From: Paracidobacterium acidisoli
GTDB lineage: Bacteria; Acidobacteriota; Terriglobia; Terriglobales; Acidobacteriaceae
Assembly (NCBI RefSeq): GCF_003428625.2
Contig: NZ_QVQT02000002.1
Location: forward strand, 1-64,000
Reading direction: 5' to 3'
DNA length: 64,000 bases
Shown here: positions 985 through 8,346 of the stretch, one piece after another
How the letters are laid out: the number at the start of each line of letters is the position of its first letter
How positions within the stretch are numbered: position 1 is the stretch's first letter
Made by a program: the position numbers and the translations under genes
Notes under the pieces: generated by a model
Told to the model about the DNA's origin: nothing
Databases searched by the model: none
Seen by the model: only the letters and a program-made list of their open reading frames with translations

Positions 985-2613
985 TTACCTCTCCGGCACC
1001 GCATCCTTCAGAAAGTCGAAGGTCCCCGACGCGGAAGGATGAATATTCCCGAGCCTTCGCGAGTGCACCACGACCGAATCGAGATACCAGAGGTCGATCG
1101 CCGGCATCTCCCTGGCCGCAATCTGCTGAATCTGCCGGTAGTCGTTCAGCTGCTGCGCATGATCCTGCGTCGCCGCCGCGTCCGCGATCAACCGGTCCAT
1201 CTCCGGATTGCTGTAGTACCCGCGATTCGCCCCGTGCGGCGGAAAGCTGCTCGTCGCCAGCGTGTAGCGAAAAATGTCCGGATTCTCGTTGCCGCCGATC
1301 CATCGCGACGGAGCCATCTGAAACGCGCCCCGCGTCAGGTCTGAATAGAACGTCGCAAATTCGAAGCTGCGCAGATCCAGCGCAATGCCCACCGCCGCCA
1401 TCTCCTGCTGAATCGCCGCCGCCATCAGCCGCGTCGTCTCATCCGTCGAGGTCTTCATCGCGATGTGGAAGCGCACTCCGTCCGCTCCGCGCTTATACCC
1501 GGCCGCATCCAGCAGCGCATTCGCCGCCGCCGGGTCATACGGATGCTGATCGGTCTCGCCCGTCCACGCCCAGTGCTCCGGCGGCAGCAGACTCTCCGCC
1601 ACCCGCGCCTCATCGCGCCACAGCGCATGAATCATCAGCGGCCGGTTGATCGCCAGCGCAATCGCCCGCCGCACCCGCGCGTCCTTCAATATCGCGTCAT
1701 GCGTATTGAAGACGATGTAATTCAGCACCGTCCCCGGACCCTCTTCCACCGCCAGCTTCGGATCGCGCTTCAGCGCATACACCATGTCCGCCGACAGCGC
1801 ATTGCTCGCCACATCCGCCGAGCCCTTCTGCAGCTCCAGCGCCCGCGTCGTCGCATCCGGAACCACCTCGAACACCACCCGCCCGATATGCGGCAGCCCG
1901 CCCCAGTAGCTCTGCGCCCGCTCGATCACCACATCGCGGTCGATCTCCTGGCTCACAAACCGGAACGGCCCGCTGCCCACCGGATTCCGGAAGAAATCCC
2001 GCCCGCTGCCGTAAGGCACAATCCCGATCGCGCCCTCGCTCAGATTCCACGGCAGCGCCGGATCGGGCTCCTTCAGATGAAAGATCACCGTCGCCGCATC
2101 GGGAGCGTCAATATGATCCACGCTCGTATACGACCCCGTCTTCACCGTCGTCACCGTCCCGTTCAGCATCGAGTCGATCGTCCACTTCACATCGCGCGAG
2201 GTCAGCGGCCGTCCGTCGTGAAAGCGCACGCCGCTGCGCAGATGAAAGACCCACGTCTTCGGATCGGGCTGCTCCCACTTCACCGCCAGCCCCGGCTCCA
2301 GCCCGAAGTGCGCATCGCGCCGCACCACCGCGTCAAAGAGCAGCGAATCGATATGCTCCGCCTGCGCATCCGTCCCGACCCGCGGATCAAGGCTCGCCGG
2401 GCTGCTCTCGATCAACATCACCACCGTATTGGGATCAGGCCTGCTCCGCGCACACCCTGCAACGAAAAGCCCGCATACGAGAACGCACGGCAGGAAAAGA
2501 CCAATCGCCCTGCGAAGCAGAGCCCGGGGATACAGAATGCGGAAAAAGAGGGGCTTCAGCTCCGGCCTGAAGCTGCGCCCTGCGCCCTGCGATCTGCGCC
2601 CTGTTTCACCCAT
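985..2613 (-). CDS. Peptide-binding lipoprotein of an ABC transporter (SBP family 5)
   Basis: A 542-residue extracytoplasmic solute-binding protein of the DppA/OppA type. It has a lipobox (VAGC, Cys about 54), the family opening with 'SSPASLDPR', and the body motifs RSGVRFHDGRPLTSRDV and NTHDAILKDARVRRAI. ATG 2613 is the only canonical start before the lipobox and overlaps the stop of anmK (ATGGGTGA), suggesting coupling. That start gives an unusually long stretch (about 35 residues) before the hydrophobic core. The DNA there is repeat-like (GGGCGCAG units and an AGGGGCTTCAG half-hairpin), so a non-standard start nearer the core cannot be excluded. Next to nagZ and anmK, binding of murein peptides is likely. 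No permease genes are adjacent. Confidence 0.85.
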   Translation of the reverse strand: MGETGRRSQGAGRSFRPELKPLFFRILYPRALLRRAIGLFLPCVLVCGLFVAGCARSRPDPNTVVMLIESSPASLDPRVGTDAQAEHIDSLLFDAVVRRDAHFGLEPGLAVKWEQPDPKTWVFHLRSGVRFHDGRPLTSRDVKWTIDSMLNGTVTTVKTGSYTSVDHIDAPDAATVIFHLKEPDPALPWNLSEGAIGIVPYGSGRDFFRNPVGSGPFRFVSQEIDRDVVIERAQSYWGGLPHIGRVVFEVVPDATTRALELQKGSADVASNALSADMVYALKRDPKLAVEEGPGTVLNYIVFNTHDAILKDARVRRAIALAINRPLMIHALWRDEARVAESLLPPEHWAWTGETDQHPYDPAAANALLDAAGYKRGADGVRFHIAMKTSTDETTRLMAAAIQQEMAAVGIALDLRSFEFATFYSDLTRGAFQMAPSRWIGGNENPDIFRYTLATSSFPPHGANRGYYSNPEMDRLIADAAATQDHAQQLNDYRQIQQIAAREMPAIDLWYLDSVVVHSRRLGNIHPSASGTFDFLKDAVPER

Positions 2614-3766
2614 AACAGATCTCGCCCAGCACCACCGCCCGCTTCGCGCCCGTCGCCGACGGAAGATTTCCTGGCCTGTGAAACCACGTCTCCCACGCCA
2701 GCAACGCAAACGCCACCGCCTCCTTCGCGTCGACCGGAATGCCGGAATCTCCGCTCGTCCTCACCGAACACCCCAGCGGCTCCAGCCGCTCCCGCAGCAT
2801 CCGCATCAGCGTGCCGTTCCGCGCTCCGCCGCCGGCAACGATATAGTCCACCGCCGCGCGCCCGGTCAGCGGCTTCACCCATCGTTCCACGGCCATCCGG
2901 ATACTCTCCGCCGTCAGCGCCGCCGCCGTCGCCACCGCATCCGCGGGCTCGCCGCCCGCCCTCTCGCACGCATGCAGAAACCGCTCCGTGTACGCCGCCC
3001 CGAACTGTTCGCGCCCCGCGCTCTTCGGCGGCTTCATCGCGAAATACCTCTCCCGCAGCGCCGCCTTCACCACCGAATCCAGCACCCGTCCCCGCGCCGC
3101 CACGCGCCCGTCTTTGTCGAACGCCCTGTCGAAGAGCCTCTCCATCAGCGCATCGATCACCATATTCGCCGGACCGGTATCGAAGGCGATCAGCCTCTCC
3201 GGCCCCGCTCCTGCCGGAATTACCGTCAGATTCCCAATGCCTCCCAGGTTCTGCAGCACCCGTGCCCGTTTTGTATCCGTGAACAGCACATAATCCAGCA
3301 GCGGCACCAGCGGAGCGCCCTGTCCGCCCGCCGCCATATCCGCCGGCCGGAAATTCGACACCACCGGAACCCGCATCTCCGCCGCAATCAGCGCCGGCTC
3401 GCCCAGCTGCCACGTGCACGCGACGCTCCGCCCCGCATACGGCTGCGCAACGCCCTGGTGATACACCGTCTGCCCGTGGCATCCCACCAGATCCACCGCG
3501 GCCTTCAGATCCGTGACCGTTGCCCGCACCGCTTCCGCGTAGGCCATCCCCAGCCGCCAGTGCAAACGCGCAAGCTCTGCCGTGGATGTCGATTTCGCAT
3601 CCATCGCCGCCAGCACCGCCGTCCTCAGTGCTTTGGAGAAGGGAAAGGCCCGATGCCCGATCAGCTCGATCCCCGGCCTGCCGGCCCGCGCACCCCGGCG
3701 CGGTGATATCCGCACCACGGCCACATCGATCCCGTCCGCCGACGTCCCGCTCATCACGCCGGCCAC
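2606..3766 (-). CDS. anmK: Anhydro-N-acetylmuramic acid kinase
   Basis: Phosphorylates and opens anhydro-MurNAc recovered from the cell wall, giving MurNAc-6-phosphate. The N-terminal signature VMSGTSADGIDVAVV, the central GCHGQTVYHQG and the LQNLGGIGN and FDTGPANMVID motifs are all characteristic. The open frame extends to 3955, but the added 63 residues are repeat DNA (families C and D) encoding PGTPV-type units. GTG 3766, preceded by AAGGA, gives 386 residues, matching the usual length of about 370. It sits between nagZ upstream and the binding-protein gene, whose ATG overlaps its stop. Confidence 0.9.
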   Translation of the reverse strand: MAGVMSGTSADGIDVAVVRISPRRGARAGRPGIELIGHRAFPFSKALRTAVLAAMDAKSTSTAELARLHWRLGMAYAEAVRATVTDLKAAVDLVGCHGQTVYHQGVAQPYAGRSVACTWQLGEPALIAAEMRVPVVSNFRPADMAAGGQGAPLVPLLDYVLFTDTKRARVLQNLGGIGNLTVIPAGAGPERLIAFDTGPANMVIDALMERLFDRAFDKDGRVAARGRVLDSVVKAALRERYFAMKPPKSAGREQFGAAYTERFLHACERAGGEPADAVATAAALTAESIRMAVERWVKPLTGRAAVDYIVAGGGARNGTLMRMLRERLEPLGCSVRTSGDSGIPVDAKEAVAFALLAWETWFHRPGNLPSATGAKRAVVLGEICYG

Positions 3767-3787
3767 GATGAGGGACTTCCTTTTTGA

Positions 3788-3930
3788 GGAATTGTCATCC
3801 CGACCGGAGCGAACCGGGGTCCCCGGCGCACGCGCAGTTCGTGCGTTGGGGTGGGGAACCGGGGTCCCCGGCGCATGCGCAGTTCGTGCGCTGGGGTGGG
3901 GAAGCGCAGCGGAGGGATCTGCATTTTGCC
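3788..3930 (+). repeat. Family C repeat interrupted by two family D units
   Basis: The left half of family C (GTCATCCCGACCGGAGCG) begins near 3794 and its right half (GCGCAGCGGAGGGATCTGCA) resumes at about 3904. Between them are two tandem 45-bp family D units at 3813-3857 and 3858-3902, each starting ACCGGGGTCCCCGG. The uninterrupted family C form is seen at about 20568-20622. The nesting implies that family D entered family C and then duplicated. Confidence 0.8.
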
Positions 3931-3951
3931 TGAGCATGGAGATTCCACGTT

Positions 3952-5169
3952 TCAAGCGGTTTCACCCTTCGCCACCGTCTCTGCAAACCGCGTCACGCTC
4001 TCGCGCAGTCGGACCATCTGCGCCGTCGAAGGGTGCCGTGGCATGCGCTCCTCCAGCCACTGTTTTTTATGCGCCATTACGCGATGCCATGCAGCATGAA
4101 TGCGCTTCCGAAACGCCGCCGACCGCTCCGCCTCACCCAGCAGTGCCTCCCACGCCCGCACCACGAGAACCGGATCGCGGCAGATCTCGATCACATCCGT
4201 CCCCGCGAGAACCGCCTGTACCGCCGCCTCTTCCATCGAAGCCTGCGTCAGAATGCCGCCCATCTCCATATCATCGGAGATAACCAGCCCGCGAAAGCGC
4301 ATCCGCCGCCGCAAAACGCCTTCAATCCAGAACGAAGAAGTCGAAGCCCCGAATTCGCGACTGCGCCGGGTGCCCAACGCCTGGATTTTCTGACGCGGAT
4401 TGAGTGCATCGGGATAGGCCGCATGCGCCACCATCACAAACGGTAGCACCGGGGTCCCCGGCGCACGCGCGGTTCGTGCGCTGGGGTGGAGTACCGGGGT
4501 CCCCGGCGCACGCGCGGTTCGTGCGCTGGGGCGGAGCCGCTTCGCCAGCGCCCGGTACGGCGCAAGGTCCTGCTCCCACATCTGCTCCCAGCTTCGATGA
4601 ATCTCCGGCATCGCCTCGTGCGAGTCGAGCGTCCCTCCGCCCAGCCCCGGAAAGTGCTTCCCGCACCCGAGCACCTTTTCCGCCGCCAGCCCGTCGAGAA
4701 ACGCGCCCGCATACCGCGCCACCTCGGCCGGGTCCGCCGACACCACCCGCGTCCGCATCACCAGTGCCGACTCCGGCAGCGCCAGATCCAGCACCGGAGC
4801 AAACGCCACATTAAACCCCAGCGCCCGCGCCTCCGCGCCGATCAGCCGCCCGTGCTTTTTGAAGAGCCCTGTCCTGCCCGTCGCAAACACCTCTGCCGGA
4901 GCAGGCATCGGCGCAATCAGATCGCGAAAGCGGTCCACCAGCCCGCCCTCCGCATCGATGCACCGGAACAACGGAGCCCCGGCCGCATCCACAGCCTCAG
5001 CCGATGCACGCAGCAGCGCATGCACCTGCGCCGCCGCTTCGATGTTGCGCCGAAAGAGAATCACCCCGCCCGGCCGCACCGCCCTCATCCACGCCCGGTC
5101 GGCGGCAGAAAGGGAAGTCCCCTCCACGCCCGCAACGATCAGTTGTCCCACCTGCTCCCGCAGATTCAT
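3952..5169 (-). CDS. nagZ: Beta-N-acetylhexosaminidase (GH3, NagZ type) with in-frame repeat insert
   Basis: Releases GlcNAc from GlcNAc-anhydroMurNAc muropeptides in the cytoplasm; no signal peptide is visible. The 405 residues carry KHFPG at 171-175, the Asp-Ser-His dyad of NagZ enzymes at 182-184, and the nucleophile motif SDDMEM near 298-303. Residues 213-242 are two perfect 15-residue units (SARTARAPGTPV core) encoded by two family D repeats. They fall just before the VMVAHAAYPD strand, where other NagZ proteins have a short loop. Without them the length is close to normal. Residues 260-275 are also atypical. It shares strand and pathway with anmK. Confidence 0.9.
   Translation of the reverse strand: MNLREQVGQLIVAGVEGTSLSAADRAWMRAVRPGGVILFRRNIEAAAQVHALLRASAEAVDAAGAPLFRCIDAEGGLVDRFRDLIAPMPAPAEVFATGRTGLFKKHGRLIGAEARALGFNVAFAPVLDLALPESALVMRTRVVSADPAEVARYAGAFLDGLAAEKVLGCGKHFPGLGGGTLDSHEAMPEIHRSWEQMWEQDLAPYRALAKRLRPSARTARAPGTPVLHPSARTARAPGTPVLPFVMVAHAAYPDALNPRQKIQALGTRRSREFGASTSSFWIEGVLRRRMRFRGLVISDDMEMGGILTQASMEEAAVQAVLAGTDVIEICRDPVLVVRAWEALLGEAERSAAFRKRIHAAWHRVMAHKKQWLEERMPRHPSTAQMVRLRESVTRFAETVAKGETA
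4448..4537 (-). repeat. Two tandem 45-bp family D units inside nagZ
   Basis: Units at 4448-4492 and 4493-4537 are almost identical and begin ACCGGGGTCCCCGGCGCACG in plus orientation. Each is nearly palindromic: CCCCGGCGCACG pairs with CGTGCGCTGGGG with one mismatch. Read in all six frames the unit has no stop codon, and 45 is divisible by three. In nagZ the two units add exactly 30 codons. Confidence 0.9.
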
Positions 5170-5568: not shown

Positions 5569-8346
5569 TCACTGCCCGCCCTTAATCTCCACCTTCAGCT
5601 CACTCAGCAGATTCAGCGCCTCCAGCGGCGTCAGGGAATTGATATCCGTCTCGTTCAGCCGGTCCAGAATCCGCTGCGACAGCGGTGTAAACATCGTCAT
5701 CTGCAGCGACGGCTCCGTCTCCACGGCCACGTTGTGCCGCTCCGACCGCTCATGCTGCTTCAGCACCTGCCGCGCCCGCTGAATCACCCCTGCCGGCAAT
5801 CCCGCCAGCCGCGCCACGTCGATGCCATAGCTCTTGTTCGCCGGCCCTTCTTCAATCCGGTGCAAAAACACAATCCCCTGCGCCGACTCCTTCACCGCCA
5901 CGCGCAGGTTCTTCAGCTTGGGGAGCTGCTCCGCCAGCAGCGTCAGCTCGTGATAGTGCGTCGCAAACAGCGCCCGCGCCCCGACTTTTTCCTGCAGGTA
6001 TTCAAGCGTCGCCCACGCCAGCGCCAGCCCGTCAAAGGTCGACGTCCCGCGCCCCATCTCATCCAGCAGAATCAGCGACTGCGCCGTAGCCGTATTCAGA
6101 ATCGTCGCCGTCTCCGTCATCTCCACCATGAACGTCGACCGCCCCCGCGCCACGTTATCGCTCGCGCCGATGCGGGTGTAAACCCGGTCGACAATGCCGT
6201 ACCGCATCCGCTCCGCCGGAACAAACGACCCCATCTGCGCCAGAATCACCAGCAGCGCCGCCTGCCGCAGATACGTCGACTTGCCGCCCATATTCGGCCC
6301 TGTAATCAGCAGCAGATTCGGCGCAGCCACGTTCCCGCTTCCATCCAGATACAGATCGTTGGGCACAAACCGCCCTTCGCCCGCATCCTCCATCAGCCGC
6401 TCGATCACCGGATGCCGCCCCGCCGCAATCTCCATCACGCACGAAGAATCCAAAACAGGCCGCGTGTAATTCCGCATCGCCGCCAGATGCGCGAAGTTCG
6501 CCACCAGATCGATCTCGGCCACCACCGTGCTCGTCCGCCGAATCCGCCCCGCGTTCTCCATTAGCCGCGCCCGCAGCGCCGCGAAGATGCGCTTCTCGAT
6601 CTCGACCGAGCGCTCCTGCGCCGTCAGAACCTTGGTCTCGTACTCCTTAATCTCCGGAGTCGTAAACCGCTCCGCATTCACCAGCGTCTGCTTGCGCTCA
6701 TAATCCGCGGGAACATTCGCCAAATTAGATTTCGTGATCTCGATGTAATACCCAAAGACGGAGTTAAACCGCACCTTCAGCGATCCGATTCCCGTCCGCT
6801 GCCGCTCGCGCTCTTCAATGGCCGCAATCGCCGACCGTCCGCTGTGCCCAATCGTCCGCAGCTCATCCAGCTCTGCGTCCATTCCGGGCTGGATCACACC
6901 GCCATCGGCCAGCGTCAGCGGCGGCTCAGGCACGATGGTCGCCATAATCGCCGCGCAAAGATCCTCGAGCGTGTCGAGATTCTGTCCGGCACGCGCCCAG
7001 AACAAATGCTTCGTATCAGGGCACGGCTTTAGCCGTGCTGATTCCGCTTCAGAAAATGCGGGGGCTTTAGCCCCTGCGGCCAGCCTTCCCACCGTGCCCT
7101 TCACATCGGGCAGATGCTTCAGCGACGCCGCCAGCGACAGCACATCCCGCGGCCCTGCGCTGTCGAGCGAAATCCGCGCCAGCAGCCGCTCTAAATCCAG
7201 AATCCCCGCCAGCCCGCGCCGCAGTTCCTCGCGCAGGATCAGATCCTGCCGCGCCGCGTCCACCGCCTCATACCGCTCGTGGATACACGCCTTATCCAGC
7301 AGCGGCCGCAGAATCGCCGCCCGCAGCATCCGCTTGCCCATCGGCGTCGCGCACGCGTCGAGAGCATAAAACAGCGTCGTCTCCCGCCCCGCATCATGAA
7401 ACAGCGGGTCCAGCAATTCGAGATTGCGTACCGTCACCTGATCGAGGTGCAGAAACTCCGCCCGCCGGTAGAACCGCAGCGAATCGACATGCACCGCTTC
7501 GCTCTGCTGCGTCGTCCTCACATAGTGGACGATCGCCCCCGCCGCAACCGCCGCCGCGCGATGCTCCGCCAGCCCAAAGCCTTCGAGCGACTTGCTCCCC
7601 ATCTGCCGTTCTAAAAGCGGCAGGGCAAAATCGGGAGTGAACACCCAGTCCTCGACCGGCGTCCGCGTCTTCACCCGCTCCAGTGCTTTCGTGAATTCCC
7701 CATCCTTCGCAAACAAATCCGGGGTCCCCGGCGCGCTCGGTTTTGGCGCGCTGGGGTGAAGAGAAGAAGCCCCGCCCGGCAGAATCACTTCGCTCGGATT
7801 CAGCTTCAGCAGCTCATCCACGCACAGCGCCAGCGCATTCGCGCCCGAAAACTCCGTCGCCCGAAACTCCGCCGTCGAAAGGTCCAGATACGCGAGCCCG
7901 GCCGTCCGCTCCACGCCTTTGCTGCCGGCCTTCGCCTCAGAAGCGTCCGCATACACCGCCGCAAGATAGTTGTTCTGCTCCGGCCCCAGTGCCGAATCGA
8001 TCGCCGTCCCCGGCGACAGCACCCGCGTCACCTCGCGCCGCACAATCTTCTTCGTCAGCTTCGGGTCTTCCATCTGCTCGCAGATGGCGACGCGATACCC
8101 CTTGCGCAGCAGCCGCGTCAGATACGCCTCCGCCGCATGGTAGGGAACCCCGCACATCGGCTGTGTCTTCTCGCGGTCCCGCGCCGTCAGCGTAATCTGC
8201 AGCTCGCGCGCCGCAACCTTCGCGTCTTCATAAAACAGCTCGTAAAAGTCCCCCATGCGAAAAAACAGCAACGCATCGGGATTCTGCTGCTTCGCCGCAT
8301 AATACTGCCGCATCAGCGGCGTCTGATTGTCCGAAATCTCACTCAC
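5569..8346 (-). CDS. mutS: DNA mismatch repair protein MutS, with two in-frame repeat inserts
   Basis: Recognises base mismatches and recruits MutL. The 925-residue protein has the mismatch-reading FFRMGDFYELF near the N terminus, Walker A GPNMGGKSTYLRQ, and the ATPase motif DEMGRGTSTFDG, so it looks functional. It is about 50 residues longer than usual. Two segments explain this: about residues 195-209 (PSAPKPSAPGTPD, a family D unit) and about 424-447 (APAFSEAESARLKPCPD, a family A repeat). Both keep the frame. The start is GTG 8346; the family's opening region follows at once. A toxin-antitoxin pair lies upstream. Confidence 0.95.
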   Translation of the reverse strand: MSEISDNQTPLMRQYYAAKQQNPDALLFFRMGDFYELFYEDAKVAARELQITLTARDREKTQPMCGVPYHAAEAYLTRLLRKGYRVAICEQMEDPKLTKKIVRREVTRVLSPGTAIDSALGPEQNNYLAAVYADASEAKAGSKGVERTAGLAYLDLSTAEFRATEFSGANALALCVDELLKLNPSEVILPGGASSLHPSAPKPSAPGTPDLFAKDGEFTKALERVKTRTPVEDWVFTPDFALPLLERQMGSKSLEGFGLAEHRAAAVAAGAIVHYVRTTQQSEAVHVDSLRFYRRAEFLHLDQVTVRNLELLDPLFHDAGRETTLFYALDACATPMGKRMLRAAILRPLLDKACIHERYEAVDAARQDLILREELRRGLAGILDLERLLARISLDSAGPRDVLSLAASLKHLPDVKGTVGRLAAGAKAPAFSEAESARLKPCPDTKHLFWARAGQNLDTLEDLCAAIMATIVPEPPLTLADGGVIQPGMDAELDELRTIGHSGRSAIAAIEERERQRTGIGSLKVRFNSVFGYYIEITKSNLANVPADYERKQTLVNAERFTTPEIKEYETKVLTAQERSVEIEKRIFAALRARLMENAGRIRRTSTVVAEIDLVANFAHLAAMRNYTRPVLDSSCVMEIAAGRHPVIERLMEDAGEGRFVPNDLYLDGSGNVAAPNLLLITGPNMGGKSTYLRQAALLVILAQMGSFVPAERMRYGIVDRVYTRIGASDNVARGRSTFMVEMTETATILNTATAQSLILLDEMGRGTSTFDGLALAWATLEYLQEKVGARALFATHYHELTLLAEQLPKLKNLRVAVKESAQGIVFLHRIEEGPANKSYGIDVARLAGLPAGVIQRARQVLKQHERSERHNVAVETEPSLQMTMFTPLSQRILDRLNETDINSLTPLEALNLLSELKVEIKGGQ
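7008..7077 (-). repeat. Family A repeat inside mutS (copy 3)
   Basis: It has the same order as the intergenic copies: GCTTCGTATCAGGG, then stem GCACGGCT/AGCCGTGC, a variable spacer, then GGGGCT/AGCCCC and CTGC. On the mutS coding strand it is read through without a stop. It interrupts the region between VGRLAA and AGQNLDTL in the MutS core. Confidence 0.85.
7720..7762 (-). repeat. Family D unit inside mutS
   Basis: A single diverged unit, CCGGGGTCCCCGGCGCGCTC followed by GGTTTTGGCGCGCTGGGGTG in plus orientation. It encodes PSAPKPSAPGTPD, clearly related to the nagZ insert PSARTARAPGTPV. The two copies therefore use the same reading frame of the element. Confidence 0.8.

Follow-up and report, generated by a model that had tools for sequence, protein, structure and literature searches.

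A widespread REP-like hairpin module inserted in frame, as a tandem pair, in nagZ of Paracidobacterium acidisoli

The window analysed in this study is a stretch of 64,000 nucleotides (G000:C8:1-64000) from the 5.0 Mb genome of Paracidobacterium acidisoli. On its minus strand lies nagZ (3952..5169), which encodes a GH3 beta-N-acetylhexosaminidase-like protein (Pfam Glyco_hydro_3, E 1.9e-50; beta-hexosaminidases were matched among the solved structures, best E 2.4e-36) and carries an insert of 30 codons. The insert consists of two tandem copies of a 45-bp hairpin unit, both on the plus strand, at 4448..4492 and 4493..4537, which are identical at 43 of 45 positions and are matched at E 4.1e-12 and 7.7e-12 by a covariance model (CM) built on 24 copies of the unit. 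Two further tandem 45-bp units on the plus strand (3813..3857 and 3858..3902, both CM matches) are found upstream of the AnmK domain, in the loop of a palindrome (GTCATCCCGACC..GGAGGGATCTGCATTT, 3794..3926, plus strand, recognised from the sequence) of the type called B below, and unit-free forms of this palindrome are present elsewhere in the genome. A diverged 45-bp unit (7718..7762, plus strand, CM E 5.3e-8) contributes 15 codons to mutS (5569..8346, minus strand), whose Pfam matches run from MutS_I to MutS_V. A 42-mer of the unit has four occurrences in the window within three mismatches, as opposed to none in 100 dinucleotide shuffles, and no curated covariance model of Rfam 15 gave a match up to E 10 between positions 3500 and 8000. 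The anmK reading frame (2606-3955, minus strand) is open through both units at 3813-3902; since its AnmK Pfam match begins only at residue 64, the true start of anmK is probably downstream of the units.

The original prediction held that the two tandem units add exactly 30 codons to nagZ immediately before LPFVMVAHAAYPD and leave the active-site motifs intact, and both statements are borne out. Alignment to 14 orthologues taken from other genera shows NagZ to be longer by exactly 30 residues, which lie between AKR and LPFVMVAHAAYPD; the peptide, of which one possible cut is LRPSARTARAPGTPV-LHPSARTARAPGTPV, directly precedes LPFVMVAHAAYPD and occurs in none of the 14. The KHFPG and SDD stretches, which are presumed to have a catalytic role, are retained. 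An AlphaFold2 model of the protein (mean pLDDT 82.6, pTM 0.85) has an intact barrel, beside which the insert is modelled as coil whose pLDDT falls below 50 at residues 213-220 and 225-238, and judging by this model the insert probably adds a short floppy stretch to the protein. It is inferred that the insert is translated and that its effect on the enzyme is near-neutral. The idea that it is an old feature of the NagZ family or a local low-complexity linker can be given next to no credence: a disordered prediction for the insert is all that agrees with it, whereas the alignment found the peptide in 0 of 14 orthologues, so that the ancient family feature envisaged by the original prediction as an alternative did not appear, and the identical type of unit is present at other sites throughout the genome.

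Searching the whole genome with the CM at a threshold of E <= 0.01 gave 77 matches at 65 sites, 11 of which hold more than one copy; the absence of other copies, which had been named as evidence against a mobile element, was thus not observed. Matches are 45 bp (46), 39 bp (19) or 31-44 bp (the other 12) in length. Those on contig C9 are all on the minus strand and those on C10 and C11 all on the plus strand. At least three of the 65 sites are clearly in genes, namely nagZ, mutS and moeA, and their units have a common orientation and frame, reading L[RH]PSAxxxxAPGTP. In moeA, identified by the Pfam domains MoeA_N, MoCF_biosynth and MoeA_C, the unit (C11:440152-440196) adds exactly 15 residues which are absent from 22 of the 22 relatives covering the site. 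The mutS insert falls in a variable stretch inside the MutS_II Pfam match, where relatives differ from one another, and its peptide is absent from 24 aligned rows representing 23 other genomes. Two other candidates agree with the unit mainly at its left end and are regarded as doubtful: one, with a model E of 5.4e-5, is in a murE-like gene with Pfam Mur ligase domains (C12:483091), and the other, found by a pattern match alone, is in a carboxylesterase gene (C8:114042).

The unit has the ends CCGGGGTCCCC on the left and GGGGTGG on the right, and the stem between them varies yet keeps its pairing. It folds on the plus strand as a hairpin with a 12-bp stem, which agrees with the near self-complementarity noticed at the outset, and the stem covaries. 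A structure alignment was made for part of the loci, with 107 copies drawn from 63 sources; in it 97.1% of cells are paired, compared with 83.0% when partners are shuffled, and 200 cells carry double-sided changes, compared with 61.5 after shuffling and at most 36 when the structure is slid by one to three columns; since this alignment was fitted to the structure, these figures are favoured by it. An ungapped test free of alignment bias was made with 68 distinct cores (56 different left arms) among the named-genome matches listed, and pairing at the seven outermost positions of the stem is 0.903, compared with 0.545 for shuffled partners. Within genome G363 there are ten different left arms in ten cores, with 0.957 paired as against 0.636 shuffled; G310, G261 and G177 are above all of their own shuffles, and G336, with four cores, equals its best shuffle. 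Because the stems of P. acidisoli itself are alike, the contrast is absent there (0.950 versus 0.923). The wobbles are G-U rather than A-C, which suggests from the sequence that the strand in the family orientation may be the one that folds. Poor stems, with four or fewer of seven pairs, were found in five of the 84 named copies listed: L216, L222 and L254 look like chance matches, and the L222 sequence is that of an ordinary cytochrome oxidase; L210 and L240, in contrast, may be genuine copies whose stem is shifted.

Two other properties assigned to the unit at the outset hold in part. Each unit in the tandem is indeed free of stops in all six frames, but this openness appears to be mostly a matter of composition rather than a special property, since 33% of 2000 dinucleotide shuffles of the unit and 226 of the 543 45-mers in the window that contain 33 or more G+C are open as well; among the genome's own copies of 39 or 45 bp it is seen in 47 of 65. 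A length divisible by three is likewise found in 65 of the 77 own matches (those of 45 and 39 bp), but as a family-wide rule it fails in nine of ten distinct cores from G363, four of four from G336 and nine of nine from G261, and overall in 32 of the 68 named cores listed, with length taken as core plus 4.

A location inside genes, as in nagZ, mutS and moeA, is the exception, and the usual one is the loop of another palindromic repeat. At 56 of the 65 sites in P. acidisoli a unit or a tandem lies between both arms of such a repeat; arms were assigned by reading the flank listings, and a few are imperfect. Host palindrome A (CCCCACCTT..AAGGTGGG) accounts for 40 of these 56 sites, B (GTCATCCCGA..GGGATCTGC) for eight and C-type palindromes (CCGGGC..GCCCGG or CCCCCGGC..GCCGGGGG) for eight. 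Empty forms were surveyed in 354,229 bases of the same genome, where a single place may count twice, once per strand. Three readings show palindrome A empty, with a loop of 9 nt (CGCGAAGCT in one, CGCGCAGCT in two), and filled A loops are mostly 48 and 54 nt, and also 99 nt, that is, 9 plus 39, 45 or 90; one A reading of 49 nt that had been labelled empty is in fact a diverged unit. In palindrome C the empty loop is 4 nt long (26 readings on both strands), as against 43 nt (4 + 39) when filled; six 43-nt C readings were labelled empty, and the four of them listed are other-strand units or a diverged unit. Whole-unit presence and absence is therefore seen in palindromes A and C. In B presence and absence are also seen, with empty loops of 15-26 nt, but a 21-nt empty loop and the nearest filled one (65 nt) differ by 44 and not 45. 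No filled and empty pair was seen between close relatives, the relatives compared being without a second species of the same genus.

In five readings (L064, L065 and L076) the loop of palindrome A is occupied by another hairpin, 21 nt long and similar to CGCAGCCTGTCGTTGGCGGCT; of the four readings listed, two represent one place. The loop thus accepts more than one module. Genome G003 has units within the loops of other units (L097, L098 and L099). In L097 an M28 peptidase-like reading frame (2536-4164) contains nested units, apparently in frame, upstream of the matched domain. Outer arms of at least 8 bp are present around ten of the 75 named copies listed (about 1% expected), where some copies are mutual relatives so that the ten are not all independent, and four of 31 copies from the class (0.3% expected); P. 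acidisoli itself gives no discrimination in this count.

Such a distribution could in principle arise with no enzyme at all, if replication errors at hairpins (slippage, template switching between arms and recombination between host palindromes) spread the units and only rarely reached genes. A tandem arrangement is frequent (11 of 65 sites), and the G363 stems, which differ and nevertheless pair, are what arm-to-arm correction would give. However, the nearly fixed ends recur in unrelated phyla at tens of copies, whole units are present or absent in two unrelated palindromes, and the copies in nagZ and moeA have no host palindrome, and this explanation is considered improbable. Recombination between host palindromes could still have spread copies that already lay within them.

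The distribution beyond P. acidisoli was assessed in several ways. A pattern of exact ends matches 79 of 399 genomes of the class, P. acidisoli included, and the reversed control gave zero among the matches listed. The CM found matches in 14 of 41 genomes, again with P. acidisoli included, among them 64 in G003 and 74 in G033. A scan of named genomes returned at least 117 stretches, some of them outside Acidobacteriota. Fifteen genomes were picked from these matches for whole-genome counts with exact ends, in which the reversed pattern gave 0 throughout and at least one match among those listed is without a clear stem. The counts were 67 in a member of the Defluviitaleaceae (L198), 76 in Desulfarculus (L208), 51 in a member of the Propionibacteriaceae (L209), 41 in a member of the Oscillospiraceae (L232), 26 in a deltaproteobacterium (L266), 17 in a member of the Clostridiales (L242) and 1-12 in the nine others. 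The unit thus has copies in unrelated phyla.

In-gene copies were also screened elsewhere. At least 64 copies have a spanning reading frame, and 34 of these, in 33 frames, pass a filter on codon-position G+C; thirty of the 33 frames were scanned against Pfam (L215, L185 and L186 were left out). Eleven of the 30 were accepted by eye as a recognised protein interrupted by the unit: a pyrimidine nucleoside phosphorylase, folP, a 3-hydroxyacyl-CoA dehydrogenase, a GH3 enzyme, priA, an Lhr-like helicase, a molybdopterin oxidoreductase, mnmA, carB, gcvPB and a protein with carboxypeptidase-regulatory domains. The remaining 19 were dropped as terminal extensions, for want of domain support around the copy, or as chance. 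Comparison with solved structures gave, for the phosphorylase, chain 1brw_A, which is without 14 residues at about the place of the unit; for folP, the alignment to the best solved chain is split in two around residues 76-99. The carB (L244) and gcvPB (L212) genes, from other acidobacteria, seem to carry a composite of host palindrome and unit, in frame.

An integrase-core reading frame in G002, presumably of IS3 type by its motif, contains the unit as SDN-TGVPSDRSRSLGWN-GPEF, with a Pfam match only downstream of the unit. Together with this frame, the eleven genes elsewhere and the three of P. acidisoli make a set of 15 in-gene copies. The frames used in this set are antisense HP..GTP in six, sense GVP in five, antisense PP in three and sense PGSP in one, and the other two frames are not used. 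That 11 of 15 copies fall in two given frames has P 0.0018, or about 0.03 when any pair of frames is allowed, for genes that were accepted by eye; a bias for two of the six reading frames is suggestive only.

If the units are moved by an enzyme, its type has to be considered. The unit could be the REP proper of an acidobacterial RAYT/Y1 transposase (REPtron) which was lost from P. acidisoli after spreading the copies. A unit is found 30-324 bp upstream of the Y1 domain at four of 20 Y1 loci (two in G177, one in G261 and one in G003, three of them on the same strand), compared with none of 61 background loci, and class 3 Y1 genes of Acidobacteria have been described as flanked by high-copy atypical hairpins (PMC6006769). 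Nevertheless, 16 of the 20 Y1 loci are without a unit, the background loci come partly from copy-free genomes, and a single unit among five Y1 loci is no surprise in the copy-rich genome G003. The four unit-bearing Y1 proteins do not form one clade (4 changes, with 500 of 500 shuffles as low), and the GTRG foot is absent 5' of the hairpin. All of the 12 copy-bearing genomes examined have Y1_Tnp, and so do 11 of 12 relatives in which the model gave no match; being as common where copies are missing, its presence lends no support. In P. acidisoli, whose genome is 97% complete, no Y1_Tnp was found despite the 77 unit matches.

The Y1 genes at L318, L319, L323 and L325 are bounded by hairpins like AGCCCC..GGGGCGACAC and TAGTGTCGC..GGGGCTC, some of these loci also have CCCAGG..CCTGGG palindromes, and units lie near or within some of them. 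Since some of the units at Y1 loci lie in or close to palindromes linked to Y1, their association with Y1 may be accounted for by the host palindrome. Overall, a Y1 (RAYT-type) transposase as the mover is possible but weakly supported, and the REPtron explanation as a whole is judged unlikely.

A second type of enzyme, a DDE transposase moving the unit as a classical miniature inverted-repeat transposable element (MITE), appears very unlikely. Direct repeats at the ends are seen weakly, with 4-bp diagonal matches at 37% versus 26% (z 5.7), which would be in line with such an element, but perfect repeats are few: 4 of 118 (0.5 expected), or 14 of 118 (3.2 expected) for the best 3-bp variant, which is one base off. 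Moreover, the ends are not mutual inverted repeats, the left being CCGGGG and the right, read inward, CCACCC.

The reading favoured here, with a probability of about 0.7, is that the unit is a REP-like palindromic element, very small and non-autonomous, which is copied as a whole unit mostly into palindrome loops and occasionally, in frame, into genes. The lineage-specific in-frame inserts in nagZ, moeA and mutS are observed directly, as are host palindromes with and without units, the covariation of the stem and the copies in unrelated phyla. A proposed course of events can be described as follows. The unit would be copied around the genome as a whole, entering mostly the loops of other palindromic repeats and sometimes those of its own kind; a hairpin or single-stranded DNA would serve as the target, which is probably the reason for the loop preference. 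Movement would depend on an enzyme supplied in trans, and one acting on single strands might be guessed. Genes would be entered occasionally, and the copies that persist there would be those in frame, adding a disordered loop to the protein. In nagZ, either one copy would have entered and then been duplicated, or a second would have entered beside the first.

A broader interpretation, which is tentative and to which somewhat less than an even chance is given, is that these units belong to an undescribed bacterial superfamily of mobile hairpins of about 36-48 bp, whose ends are almost constant and whose stems covary freely, and which cross phyla, preferentially target hairpin loops (those of each other and of palindromes beside Y1 transposase genes included), use machinery other than that of canonical GTRG-REP/RAYT systems and feed short disordered inserts into conserved proteins, favouring two of the six frames.

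One short element is seen here in two roles, as a nested module in intergenic palindromes and as a source of in-frame insertions in housekeeping enzymes. Filled and empty loops offer a direct handle on target choice, and covarying stems combined with nearly fixed ends point to the part that a mobilising enzyme must read. If the preference for hairpin loops is true, REP-like spread becomes testable in a family of very simple anatomy, one of whose genomes, that of P. acidisoli, seems to be without the expected transposase.

Among known systems, the small dispersed repeats of Nostoc are tens of bases long, dispersed and inserted within other repeats, as the present unit is, but have another sequence and belong to another lineage. 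With the REPs of REP/RAYT systems (REPtrons) the unit shares a short imperfect palindrome (about 20-65 nt), hairpin folding, high copy number, a location mainly outside genes and sometimes within them, and tandem or clustered arrangement. REP hairpins have a tetranucleotide foot on the 5' side, either GT[AG]G or CGTC, according to two accounts (PMC3733652, PMC6006769). The unit, in contrast, has the ends CCGGGGTCCCC and GGGGTGG and is without either foot 5' of the hairpin: in the consensus of 24 copies, CCGGGGT precedes the stem and GTGG is seen only 3' of it, and further copies show the same ends but were found by the ends themselves. It also differs in sitting in the loops of other palindromes and in a genome without a detected Y1 gene.

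Within Acidobacteria, the class 3 TnpA-Y1 hairpins, which have the foot CnGA, are partly acidobacterial and number about 600 in Solibacter usitatus (PMC6006769), resemble the unit as high-copy, atypical hairpins and are linked to Y1 genes; the CnGA foot is not evident in the unit consensus, a comparison made by description only. REPs have been counted in Granulicella aggregans, and the available part of that account does not name the unit motif (PMC12306157). The original prediction knew of no equivalent in this group. For the unit family itself this holds to the extent that no bacterial-repeat study of it was found in the open-licence literature; the letters of the unit occur in 24 papers, none of which, as judged by titles and the beginnings of abstracts, deals with bacterial repeats. 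REPs within genes of other bacteria, many of them DNA repair genes, and Y1 genes with terminal repeats in Acidobacteria are, however, already described (PMC3733652).

The Rickettsia palindromic elements come close in behaviour, since a palindromic unit likewise lies in frame in unrelated genes, is absent from orthologues and is apparently tolerated, although the present unit is about 36-48 bp and belongs to other lineages, the two being compared by description; RPE-1 is longer than the unit (PMC3733652). The part of that account covered here, which makes no mention of acidobacterial in-gene copies, describes intragenic REPs of Opitutus, Thauera and Rickettsia in frame in housekeeping and DNA repair genes, often as dimers or groups adding 20-30 residues (PMC3733652). 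Those REPs carry a GTAG or CGTC tag, which the unit does not. In conclusion, the insert in nagZ is genuine and lineage-specific, and consists of a widespread hairpin module of REP-like character inserted in frame.
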